Positions 12,604 through 62,615 of a stretch of DNA of 64,000 nucleotides are shown here, piece after piece (the stretch's first letter is position 1; each line of letters opens with the position of its first letter). This stretch comes from Jaapia argillacea MUCL 33604 (taxonomy: Eukaryota; Basidiomycota; Agaricomycetes; Jaapiales; Jaapiaceae): positions 620,498 to 684,497 of the forward strand of contig KL197723.1 of assembly GCA_000697665.1 (NCBI GenBank). The letters are read 5' to 3'. Both the position numbers and the translations under genes were made by a program. The notes below the pieces were generated by a model, which was not told where the DNA came from, made no database searches, and saw nothing but the letters and a program-made list of their open reading frames with translations.

Positions 12604-13974
12604 TTATCTCCGAATCGTATCACGAACAAGAAGACTGGGTAAAGGCTGTTTATCGGGCAACACCATCTCTTCCTTCGCCTTTGGAGACATCATGACATCC
12701 TTCGAGTAATAGTCGGTCCACAGGTTGCTGTCCACCACATACGGATTGATAAGCAGGAAGCGGAAAAAGTCGTCGGTGGAGGGAGTAGAGGGAGGGACGG
12801 CGCCTGGGGTATCCACCAATGTCGAAGCATCTGACATGCTTGTGAGGGTGGTGGAAGAATCACTATTAGGAGGAGGTTGGTGAGATGAAGTTGCAGCGCT
12901 ACTCCGGATTCCGAAATGGACGAGTTGGATCCAGAAATATGTCATGGTGACATGGAATGCTCGACTTGTTGTCTGTTTGCTGTTGGCGATGTAATGCTGG
13001 AGACCGTCGAAGATCATATTTTTTCCTGCGTACGTGGCTTAGGAAGGGGCCTCGTAGAATATCGAGAGAGGCGTACCTTTCTGGCGACCATAAGTCGTAA
13101 GTATCACATACGCAAGTCGAATATGCGTGTAATGATCCCAAGCGGGGAGGTTCAGTTCCCTGAATTGTTGCAAAAAGACTTCCGGGGAGGAATCGCTTTC
13201 AGCACGAATCAAGAAATCTTCAAGACGCCTGGCGAGCTTGTTCGTAGAGCCCGAATAGGTCGTCATCTCCTTGACATTCTGTTCCTGGGTCTCCGTGGAG
13301 GTCTCTTCTGAGGAGTGCTGCCCGAGGAGCTCTGCGGCTTGAATTTGGCTGTAAAGCCAAGCGAGGACAACGGGGACGCCACTCTCTTTATATGGACGAC
13401 GACAGGTTGTGGGGAATATGGCGAATGGATGGGTTTTACAATGAGGCCAAAACATGCGGCGGAGCTCGTCTAAAGGGATGGGGTTTGTTAGGTCTGACTT
13501 GTGTGCCAAGCTGTATATGGCGTTAGCTGTTTGCTCTGGAGATTGGGCCGGGAAGGAAATGAGTTTGACTCACAGTACAACAGGCATCTCAGATCTTTGA
13601 GACCTCTGAAGAAAATCCATGATATGCTCGAATTCCTCCACACTCTCACTCAGCCGTGTTTTGTCAGAGGAGTCAACCACCCAAATAACTGCCGCTGAAG
13701 TGGGCAAATAAAATCTGGCTAATTGTCCGGCAAAGCGAGGTCCACCACACCCTCCACCGATATCGAATCCTGTAATGGAGACGTTTCCTTTCGCGAAATG
13801 GAGAGGGAGGCTCTCGATGTTCATTCCCATGGTGGGGTATGGGGTGATGACATCGGCTTCAGATTGGATATAATAGAGAAGGGTCGTTTTGCCAGTGAAA
13901 TCGAGACCGAGGAAGGGGACTCTGTAAGAAGTGGACGGCCAGAGACGTTGGGCCAAAGTTTGGAAGGTGAGCAT
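12604..13974 (-). CDS. Arf-like small GTPase with long C-terminal extension
   Basis: Start ATG at 13974 (MLTFQTLAQRLWPSTS). The G1 P-loop is GLDFTGKTTLL near residue 23. The switch I region contains PTMGMNIE, with the Arf-type threonine. G3 is DIGGG where canonical Arf proteins have DVGGQ, so the catalytic glutamine position is glycine. G4 reads LAHKSDL instead of NKQDL. WVVDSSDKTRLSESVEEF is the usual Arf segment after G3. Introns lie near 13511-13571 (giving VVLLAHKSDL) and 13029-13078 (giving GRQKGKNMIFDGL). The Arf fold is followed by roughly 250 extra residues with TYFWIQLVHFG and a Ser/Thr/Pro-rich linker, not found in ordinary 180-residue Arf proteins. Family members act in vesicle traffic on membranes; this one is divergent enough that hydrolysis may be impaired. 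Confidence 0.78.
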
Positions 13975-14038: not shown

Positions 14039-14501
14039 CATATATGATCTGCTGATGGTCAACTGTCAGTGGAATATAGCCACGTCATGGAGGCGAACTT
14101 GAGACGTGTAGACAAGTCAAACCGCAGCTGTTGTATCTGTAGCCAGCGGGACAGCCTCGACGATAGCTGTGAGTCCGAGGGCGGGGAGTGACTTGGCTCC
14201 CGGAAGGTCGGTTGTATTTGGTCGAGATGTTAGGGCATCGTCGTCAACCCGATACGAGACGCTAATGACAACACTTATTCGCGAGGTAATAGGCAGGAGC
14301 AGGGAGGTCAGTGGACCTCCAGACGGCCCATAGTAGCGCACTGCTGATTTCAAGCGAGCCACGAAACCGACTCAAAATTCTGAAGGCCATACATTGCGAG
14401 TGTCCTGAATAGATGAGGAAGAAAGTCAAATCGTACACTAGTACACGGCTGTGTAGGGAAAACCACGGCGTGAACAGCTTCAGCAGCCCGAGAACACAAC
14501 A

Positions 14502-16413: not shown

Positions 16414-17047
16414 ATGAGCGTCACATCGTTCCTGTCGTCTTTCTTTTCTCCTCTGAACGCGGACGCTCCGGAGAGCAAGGAGGAGGAGGAGAAGCCAGAG
16501 GAGACGAGCGAAGAGGCCGAGCCCGAGGCAGAGGCAGAGGAAGAAGAAGAGGAGCCTGAGGATGTCAGTTCAGTCTTCTACTTCTTGCTTTCGCGTCTGA
16601 CTTGTTTGCAGGCTGCCCCCGCTATCCGGGAGGAATGTGAGGCGACAACCAAATGCGCACCTTTGGTGAAACACTTCCAACATTGCCAGGAGAAGGTCCA
16701 TGCCGGTGAAGGTTTCAAGCATGAGGATTGTGTTGAGGAACTGTGAGTATCGCGTCTACCTCCTGACCTTGTCATTTTCTGACGATATTTCTCCACCAGC
16801 TGTACGTGTCCTTTCTTTTCCCCGTTACTTTGAACTAGTGCTCAAAACTGGCTCGCCCTTTTGTTCTTCAGTCCAGTAAGTCCCATATGCCCGAATTTTT
16901 GCTCGCATTGGTACTGAATCACGCTTCTTGATCACAGTATGATGCACTGCGTGGATGTACGTAGTTTGACTGCTTACTAGTGACGATATCTCAATGACTC
17001 CTCAACAGGCTTGCGCCGCACCCACTCTCTTCTCCAAGCTCAAGTAG
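16414..17047 (+). CDS. QCR6: cytochrome bc1 complex subunit 6 (hinge protein)
   Basis: Six exons, 16414-16563, 16612-16742, 16800-16801, 16872-16875, 16938-16956 and 17009-17047, total 345 nt and encode 114 residues. The protein has a short N-terminus, an extremely acidic stretch (Glu-rich, about residues 20-50), then the hinge-protein core CEATTKCAPLVKHFQHCQEKV, HEDCVEEL and FHMMHCVDACAAPTLFSKLK. The paired cysteines of the disulfide-linked helical hairpin are all present. QCR6 sits on the intermembrane-space face of complex III and eases cytochrome c1-cytochrome c electron transfer. The acidic region is typical of the family, and the length is normal. Exons 3 and 4 are only 2 and 4 nt long; without both, the conserved ELFHMMHC frame cannot be recovered from consensus splice sites. 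Confidence 0.9.
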
Positions 17048-51603: not shown

Positions 51604-53825
51604 TCAATTTTGGACCAAATGATATACAAACTGTCTACTCCCTCCAGAGAGGGACGGCTGATACAGGGTGACACCCAAGGCCGAAATGTGTGACGCGCGG
51701 CCGACCGCTCTCCTTGGGAACCATCCAACCTTTCCACACAACGAAGCAACAAACCGGCAATCGCCGCGGGCTCTGGGGAACACCATAGGGTCTCGATGAT
51801 GACCCAAGCTCAGTAGATAACCCTCCTTGAGCATCACATCTGATGGAGAGGATACTGCCTATGACCATGTGGCAAATGGTTTGTGGTTCCCGCCGGGACG
51901 ATAACCATGTTTCACATTATCGATCCCTGGAGGCAGACGAATTGGGGAAGAAGCCGCTGCTACGACGAGGACATCTGAATCTTCGAATTCATCCTCCGAG
52001 TTTGCTTCCACTTCGTTGTCTTGGTAACCTGAGAAGTTTGTTGAGGATACTGAATTCGACGCGAGACATCTCGTACAGGACATACCTTCGCGATGACCTG
52101 GATGTCCCTCAGCAGCCTTAACGAGTGCTGCCTGAACCTGTCGCATGAATTCATCTCTGAATTCCACGCACTTTCTCGTTAGCGAGTTTAGGTGGGCGTG
52201 GTGTCGAGAGTCGATATGGCCTGAGGATGAAGTCAGTGATATCCTCACAAAGATGAAAGTAGCCAAGGACGTGCCAATTAAGCCCCGGTCGGCGTAGTTG
52301 TGAATGAACTTAACGCATTCCAGTGCGTGTTCGGCCGTACTCTTTGTAACATCCTTCACTAATACCACTCGAATACCGGTCATATCCCTCGACCATTCGA
52401 ACAATTGAGACATCGCGGCCAAGAGCCTTTCGACCTGTTCGTCATGTTGAGCTTGGTTCTCGAGTAACTACAGACACCAATGCCGCACCCATGAGCAACT
52501 CCAACAAAATATGGTGCGGGGAGAGAACCTTACTCTAGATGTTGATACCATGAGGTTACAAGCCATCTTAAGTGGGATATGAACCTGGCGAGCATTCAAC
52601 ATCAGATCCTAGGGAAACGACAGAATGAACTCACATCGCTGATCTTCTCAAAAGCACAAGGGAAGACTTCCATTCGCCGAGAAACGAGACGCACAGGTAC
52701 CAAGATAGACATGGAGTGCGACTGGACGAGACCGTACGCGCCCGGAATATCCTGGGCTGCCGAACCACCGCCACCACCACCAAACTGTGCGCCAACTCTT
52801 ATATCAGAGATGCAGCACTTAACAACTCCTCGACTGCTCAAATGGGTGGATTTCTCCAACGTTCTCGTGATTCCTATCAATAAAACCATGAGTGCTCCGG
52901 CTGGGGAACGAATGAATCATTGGGTACTTACGGCGATTGGCCGATACAGATCCCATAAGCTCGTGATAAGTTATAATCATCCTCCCGATCTCTCTTTCGA
53001 GAGCCCGACCTCGGTTAACGACGAAGACCTTGATACCCTGACCTTCACCGACAATCCTAACCCGATGACATCGTGTCAGAGAAGGCACAAGCAAAAAACC
53101 GAATGAAGGGAATGACTAACAAAGACCAAGACTGTCCGTCCCAAGAGGGGTTCTGACCTTCTCGAAGAGAAGAGCGTTGTTGTTCGTGCCCGTTTACCTC
53201 GAAAACGACAAAGGAGTTGAGGGTCCGACTACCAGTTGGAGCTTTGAGTGTTTCGATTGAGAAATCTAGCACGCTAATTGAGGGCGAGGGTCGAACTTCG
53301 TTGGGTGATGGACAAACCGGTAATGGTAATATTTAGATAATGACTGCTGACGAGGGTCAATATCGGTGACGAGTCGACGCTGGGAAAACGTGATGTACGT
53401 ACTGTGGCATGGTGAAGGAGGGATACTGAAGGAGGGGCTGCAAGTTACGAGGCCTGGCAAGTCCAAGATACGGTCCCAAATTGACGCTGCAGCCTATATG
53501 CGGAGAAGAAATCCCCGAGTCATAGGGCGCTAATCACATCGCGGCAACGAAATGAGTTCGATATCAAATCCGCAAATACCGGCGAGAAGGAAGGTTACAA
53601 TGTTGCATGGGAGGAATGGACGTCGGGGGGTAAAACATGTTTTTTCGCATTCCTGCGTTGGCGGATAGGACTCCGACTCCACCAAATGAGAAAATAATGA
53701 GGGGATGTCATCGCATTTCGGAGATGTCAATCTCGAGAGTGATAGAGTTGCGAACCTTGTTTTTGCGTTTGCCAACCCTGGAGGTTTGATAGGGAGGGAT
53801 CGATGAGATCGATAAATTAGACACA
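51604..53825. repeat. segmental duplication, copy A
   Basis: Sequence from about 51604 to 53825 is repeated, diverged but colinear, at about 60450-63495. Matches include the region around the tail of the C2-like gene, all its exons, the 3' flank, and a 200 bp block (53620-53825) that ends in GATCGATAAATT-like sequence in both copies. The F-box remnant just upstream is also shared in part, but copy B lacks about 800 bp there. Confidence 0.8.
51859..53330 (-). CDS. C2-like domain protein with helical C-terminal part, copy A
   Basis: The C2-like module is at the 5' end on the minus strand: SISVLDFSIETLKAP, LNSFVVFEVNGHEQQRSSLREGQNPSW, then after an intron GQGIKVFVVNRGRALEREIGRMIITYHEL, and later GVVKCCISDIRVGAQ. 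The N-P-x-W motif and hydrophobic strand pattern suit a C2 domain. A helical segment follows (PLKMACNLMAST, then FEWSRDMTGIRVVLVKDVTKS, HALECVKFIHNYADRGLIGTSL), resembling the region between C2 and NACHT in mushroom NLR-like proteins, but no P-loop NACHT is seen here. The tail is acidic (EANSEDEFEDSD) and ends at 51859. Where copy B has its ATG, this copy has ATA, so no start is apparent at the expected place; it may use another exon or be inactive. The NLR comparison is inference from pattern only. Confidence 0.5.
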
Positions 53826-56412
53826 GCATTTGCCATACCAGACCCGGAGATTTTGAAGGCGAAAAGGAGGAGGTTTCTTAGATAACGCATTCCAGCGAGG
53901 CCCGTAACGGGTAAAGGACGATCCCCATCCCAAGTCGCCTGTGAGATGAACTACCAAGACCCATCAACTCGTGCCCTGCACGTTGGGATTCGGGGCGCAA
54001 TGAAACGATCCGAGATGGGTGCCGAAATATCTGCAGGGAACGAACTTCGTGGGCGAGGTGATCACGGGTTTCGTGAAGAAACGCCACTCGACAGGGTTTC
54101 TCATCATTGGGTGGAATCTAAAAATTACTGAGGATACAAGGCCAACACCAAGTGCGTATACCCTAGTCGTCAAACTGAAACCTACCGTAGACTACCACAG
54201 CCTCATATCCTGCATGGAGATTACCAGCGAGAAATTGAGATATGCGCCAGGAGCTTCCATGACTTGGGCTGTAGAAGGTAAGTGCTAACTTGAACAGATA
54301 GGGTGACGGGACGGAAGAGATACTCACGAGGACCTAGGCAAGGATCGATTGGCGTGATTCAAAGGCCTTGCGCGCCTTCTTGGATTCGAGGGGTACACCC
54401 GCCGTATCTAGGGCGCTTAAGGGTGAGCACCGGGCCTTCCATTTGCTCTCTAGTCCAATCGCGGCGGTGAAGTCCAATCTCCCAACTCAATGGTGACAAA
54501 ATGGCGGGATCTTATGATTTTGTGACCGTATTGGATATGAAAATCGATACTTTAAAGCACCTTCGGGATAGAGGATGACCTCCCTCAGAGTCCCAAGCTC
54601 AGCGGTGATGGTCCCGATGCGTCGAGCCTTGGAGACCTGTCTTGGGGGCAATGGCCTGAGATTATCGGATAGTATGCTTTAACTGGGCGATGCATATATT
54701 TAGTGGTCTTGATACATCGGAAGGGTAGGACGGAGTACTCACAGGTATGGATGGTGGGATAGGCATCAATAATCAATGCCCGGCGTCACTATCGTCGTTG
54801 AAAATTCCTTTCGAATCCGATACGATCCAACTGAGTAGGGTTCATTCCCTATAATAGCGGCATCGCTTTTTGTCGTCGGACAGGTATTGGCAGGAGTAGA
54901 AAGAGGTCGAATTTGGACTTACTCTTGGATGACATGAACCTAAACTGGCGGCTGGCAGTGACAACGACATCGTATCCATGCCTCGCAATAGTCCCCGGTT
55001 GCTGTCTGCTCGAGACGAAAGTCCCGGCGCAGCGACCTGGATCGCGGCCTCTGGAATGGATAGCAGTCCGTCAGCATGGGTCGAGCTTCGATGCGAGGTT
55101 TTGTCAGGTGAAATCGTAGGGCTCAGAGCTTGAACCGAGCGATATTGATGGACATAAATCATAGGAGTCAGTGTAATGGGTTGTGAAGTGATGTGAAACA
55201 TCATTTCCATCAATAGCCTCGCCTAGGCGGATTGAAAGCCACTATAGATTCGCAATTAGCACAATGAAGGCCTAGAAAGAGAAGCACTGATCACCCATTG
55301 TCACTAAACCGCTTGTTGAAGAATAAAAGGCCCGCGGAGCATATTCAGTTGAGGTTGGACGCACAAATGGTTGAGAGGACGGATCATTAGCACTGAGAGT
55401 GACGCGTGACGCGCCATGAGGAGTCACGAAGACATGGTCACACGTTCGGCGATGGCTGGTTGAAGCTGTTTGGTTGCAATTGGACAGTTCCCGTTTTCCT
55501 GATGGCCTTGACATCCGCCACTTCCATCCGCCCCATAATCCCTACGCCCAGCTGTTATCCCACCACCAACACGACAGGTTATCAGAGGCACGCCCAGAGG
55601 CACGAATTTCGAAACACGGTCCTCGTCACTGAGCGCTGAACAGCAAGCCCATCTGACTCGGAACATAATTTACCTTGTCACCGTACAGAACTTAGGTCTT
55701 CAAGGCCGTATTCTTACGTCTGAACTCTACGAAATCGGATCTTCCGCCTTTTCGCCACCACCGTAGCCTCAGCGGCTAAAACGACTTCTCGAGCGCTAGC
55801 TGAACTTCCAACCGCCCGCCTTATCTCAAGTTGATCACCACGATGCAGGCCTTTTCCTCGAGTGCCCCATGCACACGATCGAGAGGCTGTATACCTGTAG
55901 CGGATAACGATTTGAAACCGTATGAGTTTGGGATAGGATACGGATGAACGTCGCGTTCTGGCTGCAGACGTGGGTCAATATTGTCTGCGGCTTTTTATTC
56001 CCCTCAAACACCCTCTGGTTCTAGACACATCCCAAGTAGGAACAGCCTTATCAACAGAATCAGACGCCCAATGTCTTCGTAGGTATGGATCACTTTCTCT
56101 TTTCAGCGCTGTTGGCGAGACGATAGGGTGGGGTTACCTCTGTGGGTGCTCCGATTCCAGGAACATTTATATTGACCATTGAACTTACCGATGCTTCGAG
56201 TCCTCCCGGTCTTACGGGTCTTCGAATCGTCCTGTATTTTGCGTGTTCGGTTTAGTTTGCTCTCAGAGAATGCCAGGTGTTCCTTTCCCGAAACGCACAC
56301 GATACCTTTCGTTCCAATCACGCGCCCGGCGCCGTTAAACCCTAACGCATTTGCCACTCTACGGTTCATGACATATATCTAGTGGGCATTCCTCCCTCCT
56401 TCTTACGCGACC
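53331..56412. other. gene-poor region
   Basis: About 3 kb without a recognised gene. Its left 500 bp belong to the segmental duplication. Frames at 54019-54288 (plus), 53964-54173 (minus) and 54842-55213 (minus) have no domain, conserved motif or consistent splice partners. Nothing between 55.2 and 56.4 kb stands out beyond the likely promoter of the membrane protein gene at 56413. Confidence 0.4.
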
Positions 56413-60711: not shown

Positions 60712-62188
60712 CTAGGACCGCGAGGTAAAGGGTTTGTGGTTCCCGCCAGGACGATATCCATGTTTCACATTATCGATCCCTGGAGGCGGACGAATTGGGG
60801 AAGAAGCCGCTGCTGCGACAAGGACATCTGAATCTTCGAATTCATCCTCCGAGTCCGCTTCCACTTCGTTATCCTGGTAATCTGAGAAGTTTGTTGAGGA
60901 TACTGACTTCCACGTGAGATCTCTTGTATGGGACATACCTTCGCGATGACGTGGATGTCTCTCAGCAGTCTTGACGAGTGCTGTTTGAAGCTGTCGCATA
61001 AATTCATCCCTGAAGTCCACGCACTTTCTCGCCAATGAGTTAAGGTGGGCGTGGTGTCGAGAGTCGATATGGCCTGAAAATGAAATCAGTGACATACTTA
61101 CAAAGATGAAAGTAGCTAAGGACGTGCCAATCAAGCCCCTGTCGGCGTAGTTGTGAACAAACTTGACGCACTCCAGTGCGTGTTCAGCCATACTCTTGGT
61201 AACATCCTTCACCAATACCACTCGAATACCCGTCATATCCCTCGACCATTCAAACAATGGAGACATTGCGTCCAAGAGCCTTTCGACCTGTTCGTCATGT
61301 TGAGCTTGGTTCTCGAGCAACTACATACACCAAGGCCGCACCCGTGAGTTAGTCCAACAAAATATGGTGAGGAGAGAGAGGCTTACTCTAGATGTTGATG
61401 CCATGAGGTTACAAGCCATCTTAAGTGGGATATGAACCTGGCAAAGCCTCAACGTCAAATCCTAGGGAAACGACAGAATGAACTCACGTCGCCGATCTTC
61501 TCAAAAGCGCAAGCGAAGACTTCCATTCGTTGAGAAACGAGACGCACAGGTACCAAAATGGACCTGGAGTGCGACTGGACGAGACCGTATGCGCCGGGAA
61601 TACCCTGGGCTGTCGAACCACCGCCACCACCAAACTGTGCGCCAACTCTTATATCAGAGATGCAGCACTTAACAACTCCTCGACTACTCAAATGTGTGAA
61701 TTTCTCCAACGTTCTCGTGATTCCTATCAATGAAACCACGAGTACTCAGGTTAGGTTACAAATCTATCATTGCCAGTGGGTACTTACGGCGATTGACCGA
61801 GACAGATCCCATAAGCTCGTGATAAGTAATAATCATCCTTCCGATCTCTCTTTCGAGAGCCCGACCTCGGTTAACGACGAAGACCTTGATAACCTGACCT
61901 TCACCGACAATCCTAGTCCGATGACGTCATGTCAACTAAGGTACAATCAGGTAGCCGAACGAAGGAAATGACTAACAAAGACCAAGACTGTCCCTCCCAA
62001 GAGGGGTTCTGCCCTTCTCGAAGAGAAGAGCGTTGTTGTTCGTGCCCGTTAACCTCGAAAACAACAAAGGAGTTGAGAGTCCGACTACCAGTTGGAGCTT
62101 TGAGTGATTCGATTGAGAAGTCTAGCACGCTAATTGAGGTGGATGATCGAACTGCGTTGGGTGATGGACAAACCGCTGATGGTAACAT
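60712..62188 (-). CDS. C2-like domain protein with helical C-terminal part, copy B
   Basis: Start ATG at 62188 (MLPSAVCPSPNAVRSSTS), intact here and lost in copy A. The exons give SISVLDFSIESLKAP, LNSFVVFEVNGHEQQRSSLREGQNPSW, a following intron, GEGQVIKVFVVNRGRALEREIGRMIITYHEL, then after another intron LSSRGVVKCCISDIRVGAQFGGGGG, MEVFACAFEKIGD and LTLRLCQVHIPLKMACNLMASTSR. The helical part starts LLENQAQHDEQVERLLDAMSPLFEWSRDM and includes HALECVKFVHNYADRGLIGTSL. The tail is acidic (EVEADSEDEFEDSD), then RPPPGIDNVKHGYRPGG, ending at 60712. This fits a C2 domain followed by the linker helices that precede NACHT in mushroom NLR-type proteins, but with no nucleotide-binding domain. It is the better preserved copy. 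Function is unknown, and the NLR link is inference. Confidence 0.55.
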
Positions 62189-62615
62189 TTAGATAATGAC
62201 TCCTTGGTTGAGGGCCAGAATCAGCGACGAGTCGACGCTGGTCAAGTGTGATGTACGTACTGTGACATGGCGAAGAAGGGATACTGAAAGACAGCTGCAA
62301 GTTACGAGGCCTGACCAACTCCAAGATATGGTCCCAAAGCGACACTGCAGCCTATATGCGGAGAAGAAATCTCCGAGTCATATGGCGCTGATCACATCGT
62401 GGCAGCGAAATAGATGCTGTGAGTTGCATATCAAATCTGTACATAGCGTTGGGAAGGAAGGTTATACCGTTGCGCGGGAGGAATGGACGTCAAGGGTAGT
62501 CTCGCAAGCCAGGACCTTGTAGGGTGGGTATCTCCCGGTCGCGTGGATGAAGCCCAGCAGAGAATGAAGCGGGAGTGAAAAACCGGGAGATGCCGCACCC
62601 TACAAGGTCTGGTCC

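Follow-up and report, generated by a model that had tools for sequence, protein, structure and literature searches.

Two consecutive predicted exons of 2 and 4 nt in the QCR6 gene of the basidiomycete Jaapia argillacea

Results

The QCR6 gene and its surroundings

The window analysed in this study is a 64,000-nt stretch of contig KL197723.1 of Jaapia argillacea MUCL 33604, whose genome assembly comprises 43.7 Mb in 95 contigs. The Pfam domain UCR_hinge (PF02320) exceeded its cut-off at one place in the window, inside an exon at 16612-16742. This exon belongs to QCR6, the gene of the complex III hinge protein and the only copy detected in this fungus. QCR6 lies on the plus strand at 16414-17047; our model contains six exons that sum to 345 nt including the stop codon, as the initial annotation had counted, and encodes 114 aa. 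The translation of this model ends with HEDCVEELFHMMHCVDACAAPTLFSKLK followed by the stop.

Exon 1 (16414-16563, 150 nt, plus strand like all parts of the gene) encodes the N-terminus and an acidic stretch. It is followed by a 48-nt intron (16564-16611, GTCAGT..GCAG), which is below every length in the set of 139 ab initio introns described below. Exon 2 (16612-16742, 131 nt) encodes the first part of the hinge domain, up to DCVEE and a trailing CT, and carries the PF02320 match over the cut-off. The stretch between 16742 and 16938 is 195 nt long, and in our model it contains three introns and two micro-exons: an intron of 57 nt (16743-16799, GTGAGT..CTGAC..CCAG), micro-exon A of 2 nt (CT, 16800-16801), an intron of 70 nt (16802-16871, GTACGT..TCAG, with a weak branch-site match, CTCAA), micro-exon B of 4 nt (TCCA, 16872-16875) and an intron of 62 nt (16876-16937, GTAAGT..CTGAA..ACAG). 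Exon 5 (16938-16956, 19 nt) supplies the last base of the His codon and then encodes MMHCVD; after a 52-nt intron (16957-17008, GTACGT..ACAG), the last exon (17009-17047) encodes ACAAPTLFSKLK and the stop. The letters around the micro-exons read ..GAGGAACT/GTGAGT..CCACCAG/CT/GTACGT..TTCTTCAG/TCCA/GTAAGT..GATCACAG/TATGATG.., with slashes at the predicted splice junctions, so that both micro-exons and their flanking sites stand in the DNA exactly as first described.

In the translated model, CT provides the third base of a Leu codon and the first base of a Phe codon, and TCCA supplies the remaining two bases of Phe and the first two of His. The two micro-exons, which belong to the part of the gene for the hinge domain's second half, are thus predicted to complete Leu, encode Phe and begin His.

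On the minus strand, an Arf-like small GTPase gene (Pfam Arf, 83.4 bits) was found at 12604-13974. A gene finder run with a lax intron penalty merged it with a reading frame that lies upstream on the same strand and extends to 16197, and these are probably two genes. If it is separate, the upstream gene would start some 220 bases away from QCR6, the two being divergently oriented. The joined model included a 4-nt exon at 14193-14196, which we rejected as a likely artefact of the merging: an adjoining acceptor is GGGAG, Arf was the only domain recognised, and the exon was missing from stricter runs. Further along the window, two predicted minus-strand genes at 51859-53829 and 60712-62268, about 8.9 kb apart, have near-equal exon lengths and look like a duplication.

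A search of the fungus's own genome for a retrocopy carrying the spliced QCR6 junction (up to one mismatch) found none. The 195-nt gap matched only itself in this genome; there is therefore no sign, within the limits of the search tool, that it is a recently copied intron. Protein scans of viral and prokaryotic contigs found no relative.

Splice sites and intron lengths

For reference, introns were predicted on 264 kb (200 kb of the same contig plus the window) with a small, self-trained gene finder. Percentiles were calculated against the 139 predicted introns with both flanking exons of at least 25 nt, a set that is itself a prediction. Their median length was 57 nt, with a 5-95% range of 50-76 nt. 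The three introns of the 195-nt gap fell at the 53rd (57 nt), 91st (70 nt) and 76th (62 nt) length percentiles. In the same order, their donors scored at the 42nd, 28.1st and 75th percentiles and their acceptors at the 27th, 37th and 18.7th. All three donor hexamers are in use among the 139 modelled introns (GTGAGT in 23, GTACGT in 7 and GTAAGT in 13). The branch site of the 57-nt intron, CTGAC, is a good match; that of the 70-nt intron, CTCAA, is weak (18th percentile with a relearned matrix, 9th with a cruder one), and that of the 62-nt intron, CTGAA, is moderate (30th and 58th, respectively). Both micro-exons are bounded by a canonical acceptor and a canonical donor, and every site of the chain scored above the 1st percentile of the 139 introns. 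The splice sites of the chain are thus ordinary, a little below average.

When introns of up to 400 nt were allowed, four of 159 modelled introns were at least 195 nt long. Six of the 159, over the same 264 kb, were longer than 130 nt, and some of these six may hide further micro-exons. A tandem acceptor was also seen at 16869-16876 (CAGTCCAG), where another AG lies 5 nt past the TCCA acceptor, overlaps the donor of the 62-nt intron and scores slightly higher than the first (1.7 vs 1.2).

The strict gene finder did not call QCR6 at its score cut-off, and none of its internal exons in the 264 kb was 12 nt or shorter; both results were the same when longer introns were allowed. The run with the lax intron penalty picked both micro-exons without protein input. 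It also over-split genes, produced zero-length exons and gave exons after 16938 that disagree with the protein. We therefore gave little weight to its support for the micro-exons.

Reading frame and protein conservation

Translation of each variant indicated that skipping either CT or TCCA alone shifts the frame, and retention of any one of the three introns of the gap introduces stops. Skipping both micro-exons together keeps the frame and gives ..EELMMHCVDAC.., a 112-aa protein that lacks only Phe-His. The initial annotation had stated that loss of the 2-nt exon shifts the frame; this is correct for that exon alone, but the double skip, which it did not mention, stays in frame. The predicted spliced sequences are GAACTCTTCCATATG with both micro-exons included and GAACTTATGATG with both skipped; the two forms lacking one micro-exon would read GAACTTCCATATG and GAACTCTTATGATG.

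QCR6 proteins of the UCR_hinge family share a fold and a disulfide pairing. The full form covered positions 1-65 of the 65 positions of PF02320 with 95.4 bits (cut-off, 27.2), and the form without both micro-exons scored 81.5 bits, a loss of 13.9 bits. Scored over the domain only, the variants ranked as follows: Phe-His, 95.5 bits; Cys-Thr in place of Phe-His, 87.3 bits; both micro-exons skipped, 81.6 bits; and a variant with a 24-nt exon, 72.8 bits.

Searched against the PDB with E values up to 1, the full form matched 34 sequences, 33 of which are hinge proteins; the other, 6okd, named as a transferrin-receptor-binding cystine-dense peptide, is not one. The same 33 hinge sequences matched the form lacking both micro-exons, with a lower score in every case. 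Five alignments were displayed for the full form, one fungal and four of vertebrate type; since the latter four are near-identical, the set amounts to nearer two independent lines of evidence than five. From EDC to the C-terminus, all five had no gaps, and the cysteine spacing EDC-X13-C of the model was kept in all of them, including the best match, 7rja, which we take to be fungal. In the form without Phe-His, Cys-X13-Cys is shortened to X11, and all three displayed alignments had a two-residue gap, located at the Phe-His position in one and one residue past it in two. The Phe itself is not strictly conserved, being Leu in one displayed PDB chain.

Uniqueness of the micro-exon pair

We enumerated the splice chains that could join the ordinary exons on either side of the gap. 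With all sites above the 1st percentile, there were six chains; three were in frame, and one had the conserved length, namely CT plus TCCA. When every GT and AG was admitted, the number of chains rose to 182, of which 39 were in frame over the full length and nine left both flanking motifs intact; only two had the conserved length, the proposed chain and a poor one with Cys-Thr replacing Phe-His. In a placement test, the bases spelling Leu-Phe-His at the join (NTTYCA) were located in one or two pieces within the 195-nt gap. They could be placed in 516 ways, and only one placement was spliceable by GT-AG introns, either simple or once nested with the outer ends fixed. That placement consists of three simple introns; none of the 516 was spliceable by nesting. 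No single 6-nt exon spelling Phe-His with a GT or GC donor was present in the gap.

The gap was also subjected to 20,000 dinucleotide shuffles in which the first 8 and last 3 bases were kept, with at most two micro-exons and introns of 42-130 nt allowed. Any 6-nt chain arose in 256 of the 20,000 shuffles, a chemically similar pair of residues in 13, Phe-His with credible sites in two, and Phe-His with equally good sites in none. No canonical solution other than CT plus TCCA was found to restore the conserved segment, which supports the initial proposal of two consecutive ultra-short exons.

Discussion

Alternative explanations

The simplest alternative is a single 195-nt intron (16743-16937), with a 112-aa product (..EELMMHC..) and tiny exons that are there by chance. 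Such an intron is in frame without a stop, both of its end sites are credible, and introns of this length do occur in the modelled set (4/159). It would, however, cost the 13.9 Pfam bits, lower the score against all 33 solved hinge proteins and reduce the cysteine spacing from X13 to X11. That it contains three typical introns with leftover bases spelling Phe-His would also have to be a coincidence of a kind seen in 2 of 20,000 shuffles, and we consider this reading very unlikely. The same short product might instead accompany the full protein as an in-frame isoform, arising from a regulated or leaky double skip. This is compatible with the micro-exon pair and is favoured by the double skip being the only one of the three possible skips that keeps the frame; a microexon-dependent switch is also described for Trichoderma Xlr2 (PMC11121469). 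Since disruption of the domain is predicted for the short form, and no signal of regulation was seen here, a second isoform is possible but doubtful. The most far-reaching version of this idea, which we regard as improbable, is that the pair acts as one unit, with both micro-exons in (full hinge protein) or both out (in frame, two residues shorter); obligatory stepwise splicing could then determine the ratio between two complex III forms, and single skips would be removed as frameshifts.

Other ways of dividing the gap fared worse. In one, CTGTAC (16800-16805) would form a 6-nt exon, and the intron after it would span 132 nt (16806-16937). This division would use canonical GT and AG, conserve the length and give EELCTMMHC, with reads carrying GAACTCTGTACTATG; it appears only if GT and AG sites of any score are admitted, with one site below the 1st-percentile cut-off, and lies 8.2 Pfam bits below the Phe-His form, so that we give it hardly any credence. 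The initial annotation had raised a recursive, intron-within-intron route as an alternative, in which excision of an inner intron comes first and restores a splice site, donor or acceptor, for the outer intron. Such stwintrons are well documented in fungi (PMC5639578), but here no once-nested placement (one nesting level, outer ends fixed) gave the six bases. Among the three blocks examined, a nested reading of 16743-16937 with credible sites led to the form without both micro-exons, one of 16802-16937 lost the 4-nt exon and shifted the frame, and 16743-16871 allowed none with credible sites. Nesting fails to give the conserved product because the block it takes out is continuous, with no exon left behind, and its chance of being correct is minimal. 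Equally negligible is an assembly error that split a normal exon into apparent micro-exons: three introns of ordinary length, with all donors and acceptors above the cut-off, are not expected from an indel.

The best explanation is that the 195-nt stretch very probably consists of three ordinary short introns (57, 70 and 62 nt) with exons of 2 and 4 nt between them. This model rests on the reading frame, the conservation of the protein, the quality of the splice sites and the uniqueness of the solution; from these we infer the splicing itself and its order.

A likely mechanism of splicing

Stepwise removal of ordinary short introns is the likeliest mechanism that the arrangement suggests. Each intron would be recognised by pairing of its own donor and acceptor, that is, by intron definition, and no minimum exon size would then apply. 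An acceptor and the next donor that are 2 or 4 nt apart could not both be bound by splicing factors at once, and the introns would therefore be removed one after another. If an outer intron were removed first, the tiny exon would be fused to a normal exon, and the next site would gain a normal exon context.

If confirmed, the model would place three introns within seven mRNA bases of a conserved respiratory subunit, and QCR6 would be a compact natural substrate for studying how the spliceosome handles adjacent sites that are too close for joint binding. A second implication would be that genes of this kind are truncated or misjoined when intron-rich fungi are annotated automatically; a useful flag would be an intron two or three times as long as normal, combined with missing conserved residues.

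Comparison with known systems

Exons of 2-4 bases are known but rare, and they are usually missed by annotation. The initial annotation placed a 2-nt exon at the accepted size limit or under it, a view that is out of date: RNA-supported 1-nt exons are reported for plants and Fusarium (PMC4674806, PMC8831610 and PMC12940212), and the last of these papers also mentions exons of 2-5 bp in Arabidopsis, Drosophila and humans. Our literature search for 2-nt exons returned only a primate HLA-F report, which is no measure of what is in print (cf. PMC12940212); in the accessible sections of PMC4014442 and PMC3990503, the microexon occurs only as an aligner setting.

The closest fungal case is the single-nucleotide exon of Fusarium CYP621A, which its authors claim as the first in a fungal gene (PMC12940212). 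As in QCR6, an extremely short exon keeps the frame and a conserved motif, and the argument in that text is likewise built on an oversized gap, a conserved motif and consensus sites; the gap is 139 nt, more than twice a normal intron, and nearly all existing gene models were wrong. CYP621A differs in having one 1-nt exon in an ascomycete P450 gene, backed by RNA reads and 20 orthologues, whereas QCR6 is a respiratory-chain gene with two consecutive micro-exons predicted from the genomic sequence. The plant 1-nt exons of APC11 (PMC4674806) and VPS55 (PMC8831610) are, like those of QCR6, far below exon-definition size, but they are single and were tested experimentally. For Arabidopsis APC11, the authors suggest intron definition and removal of two introns in turn, much as proposed here for QCR6, and PMC4674806 also quotes two-step splicing of a potato 9-nt exon in which the second intron is removed first.

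Stwintrons (PMC5639578) resemble the QCR6 arrangement in that several introns of a fungal gene are spliced out in succession from the same place, but they are nested and have no exon between them. The lipS genes of Dactylellina haptotyla are fungal, intron-rich and contain two tiny exons; these are 3 nt each, with their adjacency unstated in the relevant passage of PMC5639578, vs the adjacent 2 and 4 nt of QCR6. P450 genes of Phanerochaete chrysosporium, also a basidiomycete with short introns, have exons down to 6 bp (PMC1184071), and those microexons are longer and lie in other genes. In a rice transcript (PMC8831610), two microexons that are consecutive like the QCR6 pair measure 5 and 12 nt; they total 17 nt vs 6 nt in QCR6 and were verified by RT-PCR sequencing. 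Exons of 1 nt have already been published, so QCR6 introduces no new principle; its unusual feature is that a 2-nt and a 4-nt exon are neighbours.
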